Source of the DNA: Silvibacterium bohemicum
GTDB taxonomy: Bacteria; Acidobacteriota; Terriglobia; Terriglobales; Acidobacteriaceae
DNA length: 64,000 nt
Assembly: GCF_001006305.1 (NCBI RefSeq)
Contig: NZ_LBHJ01000012.1
Coordinates: 98,231-162,230 of the forward strand
Reading direction: 5' to 3'
Positions 12,108-14,038 of the stretch are shown piece by piece. Under the pieces are notes generated by a model, which worked only from the letters and a program-made list of their open reading frames with translations, had not been told where the DNA came from and did not search any database. Positions within the stretch are counted from its first letter, which is position 1. Each line of letters starts with the position of its first letter. The position numbers and the translations under genes were made by a program.

Positions 12108-12118
12108 ACCAATAGGCT

Positions 12119-12207
12119 CGTCATTCTGAGCATAGCGAAGAATCTCAGCCCTGCTGGCATGTAAAACGACCTGAGATTCTTTCTGCCTTCGGTCGTCAGA
12201 ATAACGG
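12119..12207. repeat. Family D repeat, complete stem-loop copy
   Basis: GTCATTCTGA...GAAGAATCTCAG on the left faces CTGAGATTCTTTC...TCAGAATAAC on the right, giving an imperfect inverted repeat of about 88 nt. It sits between two convergent genes and overlaps the last codons of the lgt homologue. It could act as a bidirectional terminator or a REP-like element. Confidence 0.65.
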
Positions 12208-12969
12208 CGATACATTACGCGCTGCGCGACGCGCCCAGAGCGCGCCTCCGGCGATGACCGCAAGTACGGCGAGCAACTGGGTGAAGGAAAGCGCGTCTGT
12301 CCCGGCGCGGTAGAAGCTTAGAAAGAAGCTGGCAAAGCCGTAGAGAAAGAGCCACATGCCGGCCATCTCCCCCGGCTGCGAGCGGCGCGGCAGCCACCAC
12401 AGCAGCAAGGCAAGAATCGACAGCGAAGCAGCGGCATCGTAAACCTGCACAGGATGCAGACCGATGCCCAGCGGAGTTCGATACCAGAGCGCCGCAATAC
12501 GGCTCGTGTAAACCACGGACCAGGGCAGGGTGGTGGGCATGCCGTAGCCAAGCCCGGCGAGAAACGCTCCAATGCGATGGATGCCCATGGCCAGCGCCAC
12601 TGCAGGTGCAAGGCAGTCGAAGACCGTCAGCGGGGGCAGTCCCTCCGCCAGCGCATAAAGAATTGCCGCCCCTATACCGGCGGCGATGCTCAGCGCGATC
12701 ACCCATGCGTCGTGAACATTGGTCAGACCCAGAACCCAAAGCGGATGCTGACGGAAGGCCGGGAAATAAACCAGCACCAGCAGCAGGCGCGCTCCGATGA
12801 GCGTGGTGAGAGTGCCGATCAGGCACAGCGACCAGACTTTGTTGGGATCGAGTTGCAGGCGGCGCGCGAAGTGAACCGCGGCCGCAAGCCCTGCGATCAG
12901 AGCCAGCGCGGTGAACGCTCCATAGGTGGGGATGGCGATATGTCCGAGCTGGAGAAGGCGGGGATACAA
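12196..12969 (-). CDS. lgt: Prolipoprotein diacylglyceryl transferase homologue
   Basis: The 257-residue protein has about seven hydrophobic segments and Lgt signatures: the start MYPRLLQLGHIAIPTYG, AMGIHRIGAFLAGLGYG in the middle, and GLHPVQVYDA. Lgt transfers diacylglycerol from phosphatidylglycerol to the lipobox Cys of prolipoproteins in the inner membrane. The start is TTG (12969), since an in-frame stop lies four codons upstream. The Arg after Gly-Ile-His is retained, but the protein diverges from textbook Lgt, so it may be a second, specialised copy. Confidence 0.82.
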   Translation of the reverse strand: MYPRLLQLGHIAIPTYGAFTALALIAGLAAAVHFARRLQLDPNKVWSLCLIGTLTTLIGARLLLVLVYFPAFRQHPLWVLGLTNVHDAWVIALSIAAGIGAAILYALAEGLPPLTVFDCLAPAVALAMGIHRIGAFLAGLGYGMPTTLPWSVVYTSRIAALWYRTPLGIGLHPVQVYDAAASLSILALLLWWLPRRSQPGEMAGMWLFLYGFASFFLSFYRAGTDALSFTQLLAVLAVIAGGALWARRAARNVSPLF

Positions 12970-13034
12970 GGAAAGGTCTTAAGCAGAATGCCTGAAGAGT
13001 TCAGGACGAAACAGTTGAAGAACAAGACCGACCC

Positions 13035-13215
13035 ACTGGGCCGTGAGTGATGCGCCGGTGAACCCGTCCTAAGACGGCGGGAACCTGCCGTGGCTCTTTA
13101 GGCATTCCGGACTGGCGGACACTGCACACCGAGCCAATTGACGAGTCAAGCTCCCTGGTTCAATGAATGTAGGTTCAACCGACGTTAATCACCGCACCTG
13201 CTTTGCAGGCCGGTC
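13035..13215 (+). ncRNA. Candidate structured non-coding RNA, class unresolved
   Basis: This gap has no plausible ORF but nests well as RNA. The outer stem is GTGAGTGAT (13043-13051) with ATCACCGCAC (13188-13197). The next stem is GGTGAACC (13057-13064) with GGTTCAACC (13172-13180), 8 pairs with one bulge. Inside are hairpins at 13064-13077 (CCGTC-CTAA-GACGG) and 13138-13149 (TTGAC-GA-GTCAA), plus a stem GGCTC/GAGCC (13092-13096 with 13131-13135). A terminal hairpin CCTGC-TTT-GCAGG follows at 13197-13209. The long interrupted rod recalls 6S RNA, but I could not confirm that or any Rfam class. The strand is inferred. Confidence 0.5.
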
Positions 13216-13317
13216 TCTGAAATGGATGCTAACCAGCGGCGGCGCGGATTGCAAGCTCTAGGCGCGTTCAATTTTCGATGAACGGCGGTGAGGCTGAAAC
13301 GGAAGTTCCGCAAAATT

Positions 13318-13392
13318 CAGCGTGTAGGGTTCAGGGAGGTGCCGCGTAAAAGCGCACCCTGGGTTCAATACCCTCTACCCTACACCCTGCTT
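13318..13392. repeat. Family G repeats as an inverted pair
   Basis: GTGTAGGGTTCAGGG is followed by GGGTTCAATACCCTCTACCCTACACC, so the two copies can pair. The remainder of the 13216-13406 gap shows nothing recognisable. Confidence 0.5.
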
Positions 13393-13406: not shown

Positions 13407-13937
13407 CTACGCCCCCGCCGGATGACTCTGCGGCCCCATCTGCCGTGCTATCGCCGGCACGCCGAAGACCAGCGCCGCTACCGCAGCCGTCGCCAGCAGG
13501 TCATTGCGATAAAACGGCAATCCCGCGACATACGACATGCCCAGTCCAGCCAGGCTGCGCGGATACAGCGTCGTCGCCGTAACCCACGCCGTGAAATTCG
13601 AGACCAGGAAAAACGAAGTAGGAGCAATCAGCACTGCCGCCGTCACGCGCAAAGCCGAGGCCTTCTGCGCCAGCAGGAAATGCCCCAGAACGATCACCGC
13701 CGCGTACCACGCCCACGTCAGCAGGTAATCCTGCACATGGAACGGATAGCGATAAACAAAGCTGGTGAGGTAATAATCGGTCGCAGCCAGCACCGCCACC
13801 GGGAGAATGGCCTGGCGCAGCGGACGGCGGGCACCGAAGAAGAGCAGCGATCCACCCACGGCAGTGAAGTTAAACCAGGAGGGATGAGGAACCACGCGGC
13901 TCAAGACAGCCACAATCAGAAGTAAATAAGCGGACAT
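13407..13937 (-). CDS. DUF6580-like integral membrane protein
   Basis: The 176-residue product has about five membrane segments and starts MSAYLLLIVAVLSRVVPHPSWFNFT, followed by AVGGSLLFFGARRP. It resembles the DUF6580 family of small membrane proteins of unknown role, some of which sit near vitamin or metal transport genes; that assignment is from memory of the pattern. GAGG four nt before the ATG at 13937 favours this start over the longer frame to 13985. It stands alone between the structured gap and a family E array. Confidence 0.7.
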   Translation of the reverse strand: MSAYLLLIVAVLSRVVPHPSWFNFTAVGGSLLFFGARRPLRQAILPVAVLAATDYYLTSFVYRYPFHVQDYLLTWAWYAAVIVLGHFLLAQKASALRVTAAVLIAPTSFFLVSNFTAWVTATTLYPRSLAGLGMSYVAGLPFYRNDLLATAAVAALVFGVPAIARQMGPQSHPAGA

Positions 13938-14038
13938 AAAACCTCGCACAAAACAACAACCGGCACTCTCATTGTCGGAAGCCAAACCAGCAAGGTCAAG
14001 AAAAATACCTGTACGACATCAAAACAGTTGTTGACCGG

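Follow-up and report, generated by a model that had tools for sequence, protein, structure and literature searches.

A single 6S RNA gene with a conserved promoter upstream of lgt in an Acidobacteriaceae genome

Binding of known 6S RNAs to the sigma holoenzyme of RNA polymerase relies on mimicry of an open promoter, and the synthesis of a short product RNA (pRNA) opens the P2 duplex and leads to release (PMC8876501; PMC11077062). In RNAs of the B. subtilis and A. aeolicus type, the 3' strand of P2 then pairs with the distal part of the 5' bubble to give a central bubble collapse helix, and in E. coli an extended 9-bp hairpin forms in the 3' bubble on pRNA synthesis (PMC8876501). A conserved gene neighbourhood of 6S RNA at the level of a family is normal (PMC8414754).

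The RNA gene described here was found in a 64-kb window, which is the whole stretch of DNA that was analyzed. It shared with the 6S RNAs of Rfam family RF00013 the length and a rod with a closing stem, a central bubble, the downstream duplex P2, an apical arm and a 3'-bubble hairpin; it differed from them in that a terminator-like hairpin overlapped the closing stem. As with the E. coli 6S RNA (ssrS), a member of the same family, a protein gene lies downstream, which is ygfA in E. coli and lgt here. A further difference from the E. coli RNA is that a short 3'-bubble hairpin is predicted to be present before pRNA synthesis. Two features are held in common with B. subtilis 6S-1 and A. aeolicus 6S RNA, a small 3'-bubble hairpin formed when the RNA is free and, in the distal 5' bubble, a strand that could pair with the 3' strand of P2. 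Mutational or structural work is available for those two RNAs (PMC8876501), whereas the collapse helix proposed here was deduced from sequence only.

RF00013 was the sole Rfam match in the scan of the whole window. It covered positions 13026-13214 of the minus strand (189 nt), spanned model positions 1-187 without truncation, and reached 57.8 bits, above the gathering score of 46.4, with an E value of 7.4e-9 for 64 kb. The score was moderate, and 6S RNAs elsewhere in the phylum reached up to 117 bits with the same model. In the cmscan alignment, several closing-stem pairs of the Rfam model were non-canonical, when the consensus of the family itself paired well; the low score was attributed to a closing-stem sequence peculiar to the Acidobacteriaceae 6S RNA. 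A prior sequence-only reading had left the gap as an unassigned structured RNA, had noted a likeness to 6S RNA, and had proposed an Rfam scan together with a search for compensatory changes and for conservation in relatives; all three gave a positive result here. The likeness proved right and the label of an unassigned element had to be dropped. Based on all the data, it was concluded that the gap beside lgt almost certainly holds the single 6S (SsrS) RNA gene of this Acidobacteriaceae genome. Its transcription would run leftward from a dedicated primary-sigma promoter and stop at a hairpin that is part of the 3' end of the RNA itself. The locus adds a new member, with good support, to a known RNA family and is an ordinary 6S gene.

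The strand was settled by folding the region 12990-13260. The minus strand folded better than expected (z -2.70, with 1 of 200 shuffles as good), and trimming to 13021-13219 improved the value to z -4.41 (0 of 200 shuffles), whereas the plus strand remained at chance level (z -0.35, equalled by 68 of 200 shuffles). The nested rod proposed from the sequence was thus upheld for the minus strand only, since the complementary strand had been described. The stems quoted for it were present as given, with GGTGAACC at 13058-13065, GGTTCAACC at 13172-13180 and GTGAGTGAT/ATCACCGCAC flanking both. Relative to the proposed limits of 13035-13215, the true feature begins slightly beyond the left one. No credible ORF had been seen in the gap, in agreement with our finding of mechanical 42-aa ORFs only inside it; a 198-aa plus-strand ORF that reaches into the gap is antisense to lgt.

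The structure was further investigated using 56 sequences aligned with MAFFT without structural information (alignment A1). The consensus obtained with RNAalifold was a rod of 48 pairs; both the minus-strand fold and the alignment consensus gave one long rod. Pairing was retained in 97.0% of cells, and 22 of the 48 pairs were changed on both sides, which were the compensatory changes sought. None of 500 shuffled controls reached any of the five measures. When the partners were shifted along the alignment, pairing fell to 34-47%; this slide control favours the consensus, which was drawn from the same alignment, however the gap is wide and the independent Rfam model agrees.

The closing stem (helix 1, 98.8% of cells paired) was formed by the 5' strand CCGGCCUGC at 13205-13213 and the 3' strand at 13027-13035 of the minus strand. 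The 5' strand of P2, GGUUGAACC at 13172-13180 (minus strand), is the predicted pRNA template and pairs as helix 3 with GGGUUCACC at 13058-13066 (minus strand). The 5' side of the central bubble (13155-13171, minus strand) was unpaired in both the cmscan structure and the RNAalifold consensus. The 3'-bubble hairpin CCGUC-UUAG-GACGG (13065-13078, minus strand) was kept as a stem in relatives: at least four pairs, of several pair types, were found in 44 of the 56 sequences, and the mean stem was 4.1 pairs compared to 1.7 in shuffled sequences. The apical, internal arm with its terminal hairpins occupied 13080-13154 of the same strand (helices 4-6).

Alignment of the upstream regions revealed a promoter of the form TTGCAA-17 nt-TAGCAT. 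The -35 element TTGCAA was located at 13249-13254 (minus strand), and a TTG[CT]NN sequence 17-18 nt from the -10 element was conserved in 54 of the 56 loci. The -10 element, TAGCAT at 13226-13231 (minus strand), had a similar counterpart in the same 54 loci, 10-14 nt ahead of the model start, and was exact in 51 of the 56. An automated sigma-70 scan called no promoter at the 6S locus, because the site scores only 8 of 12. The position of the -10 element places the start of the transcript near 13218. At the other end, a hairpin CGGCCC-AGU-GGGUCG (13029-13043, minus strand) was followed by the T-rich tail GTCTTGTTCT. Its pairs were kept in 95.2% of cells across the 56 loci, and the first 8 nt past the model end contained on average 5.05 T, compared to 2.1 further on. 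No covariation beyond that of shuffles was detected in this hairpin among the 56 loci, since its pairs hardly vary. The hairpin and the T-rich stretch look like an intrinsic terminator, the conserved pairing and the tail being the two features on which this reading is based. Given the -10 position and the tail, the whole transcript probably runs from about 13218 to 13020 on the minus strand and is ~199 nt long. The hairpin and the closing stem have their 3' strand in common, so the transcript would have to refold once released.

The conservation of the gene was assayed in the family and the phylum. Of 150 genomes from this family, 119 were matched in a strict RF00013 search. When 20 of the misses were searched again with laxer filters, 5 matched at E up to 1e-3, and a family-specific model built here (R1) matched 8 of the remaining 15. 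This brings 6S RNA to 132 of the 139 genomes checked in full, which are the 119 strict matches and the 20 searched again; 11 further misses were covered by the strict search alone. Three near-complete relatives (G022, G046 and G089) gave no 6S RNA by Rfam or by the family model, with 150 candidate places scored per genome; loss, strong divergence or missed candidates are possible. At the level of the phylum, 136 of 197 genomes matched RF00013. Bacillus has a second 6S copy. No such copy was found in the present genome, as Rfam and the family model agreed on one.

The sequence-only reading had named both flanking genes correctly. A gene for a DUF6580 membrane protein (13407-13985, minus strand) forms one flank, and lgt (12196-12969, minus strand; PF01790, E 4e-34) is the next gene downstream, 56 nt past the end of the 6S model. 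Between the former and the 6S promoter, an imperfect inverted repeat (gtgtaggg...ccctacac) was observed at 13320-13390; it was rejected as a repeated element, being single-copy in the genome. The proximity to lgt was common: of 55 relatives, 42 had lgt just downstream of the 6S RNA and in the same orientation, the gap being as short as about 20 nt, and an rluD-type gene was often next. All of nine lgt loci (L102-L110), in records nearly all named Acidobacteria, had 6S RNA just upstream, two of them being cut by a contig end, and the arrangement recurred in named records such as Silvibacterium sp. and Acidobacteriaceae bacterium ZG23-2. At 30 further loci, taken from other parts of the phylum, neither lgt nor rluD was seen within about 1.5 kb of the 6S RNA, hence the linkage looks specific to Acidobacteriaceae. 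No open-access paper on acidobacterial 6S RNA or on the 6S-lgt linkage was found; the main 6S surveys lay outside this search, and the linkage is not claimed to be unreported.

Such a close and frequent linkage on one strand would suit a cis-acting leader of lgt, riboswitch-like or an attenuator, rather than a free-standing 6S RNA. This was considered very improbable. The 6S match is full-length, and the hairpin with its T-rich tail marks an end ahead of lgt. In 13 of the 55 relatives the RNA was conserved with no lgt match downstream, some of these stretches stopping at a contig edge, and all 30 loci elsewhere in the phylum had 6S RNA without lgt. A chance fold driven by the G+C content of the intergenic region, or a decayed 6S pseudogene, would agree with the chance-level fold of the plus strand and was held to be extremely improbable, as opposed by the covariation, the conserved promoter, the lack of a second copy in the genome and the strong sequence constraint on the template strand. 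Least credible of all was a plus-strand RNA of another acidobacterial class, for example Acido-1, for which nothing spoke beyond the impression of the earlier reader: a cmscan of both strands of the region at E up to 1 listed no family but 6S, on the minus strand, which ruled out Acido-1 at that sensitivity, and the chance-level fold without an Rfam match ruled out a plus-strand RNA.

With the locus read as a 6S RNA gene, its function may be modeled on known 6S biology, from which we infer polymerase binding, pRNA synthesis and the route of release. The ~199-nt RNA would fold to a rod whose central bubble resembles an open promoter, and would bind the housekeeping sigma-RNA polymerase holoenzyme mainly as growth slows. 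On regrowth, the polymerase is predicted to use the 5' bubble strand and P2 as template for a short pRNA, whose synthesis opens P2 (template GGUUGAACCUAC, predicted pRNA about GUAGGUUCAACC...). The predicted pRNA would start near 13169-13171 and run rightward on the plus strand (GTAGGTTCAACC...). This start is placed beside P2 at about nucleotide 44 of the model, which we take to correspond to U44 of the E. coli RNA. The role of the pRNA was adopted from that in described 6S RNAs (PMC8876501). The GAACC/GGUUC pairing in P2 was invariant in all 56 loci, and such a constraint on the GAACC strand is consistent with a role as the pRNA template.

It was also observed that a second copy of UUGAACC, repeating the pRNA-template strand, lies in the distal 5' bubble (13157-13163, minus strand). 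The UGAAC core of this repeat was present in 39 of 56 relatives, when 0.77 were expected from shuffles. A 5' bubble that repeats the template strand suggests release through a central bubble collapse helix, for which this copy is the candidate strand. We proposed that the 3' strand of P2, once freed, could pair anew with this second UUGAACC as long as the 3'-bubble hairpin stays in place, and that the polymerase would then be released.

The result turns an unassigned structured RNA into a 6S RNA with its strand, promoter and probable end assigned, and it is of value mainly as an annotation, backed by good evidence, for soil Acidobacteria. The 56-sequence alignment additionally provides Acidobacteriaceae with a clear 6S consensus, together with testable predictions of the pRNA and of the release mechanism. 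The stable neighbourhood with lgt may serve as an anchor to find 6S RNA in relatives missed by the general Rfam model. It is conceivable, if rather unlikely, that in Acidobacteriaceae and close relatives 6S and lgt belong to one conserved transcription unit, in which the terminator-like hairpin, a competitor of the closing stem for one strand, would allow read-through into lgt by a regulated fraction of the polymerases. If true, lipoprotein modification would be tied to 6S synthesis.

Two minor observations were made around lgt. A palindrome-like dispersed repeat (GTCATTCTGAGC...GTCAGAATAACGG) at 12118-12210 enters the 3' end of the gene; across the genome it gave 42 matches with identities of 74-100%. 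An acidobacterial-type 6S RNA (173 bits with R1) was also found directly upstream of lgt in a record titled Verrucomicrobia bacterium Tous-C9LFEB (L112, 1266-1454); the assembly may be misnamed or mixed, or else the arrangement may have been transferred or be shared.
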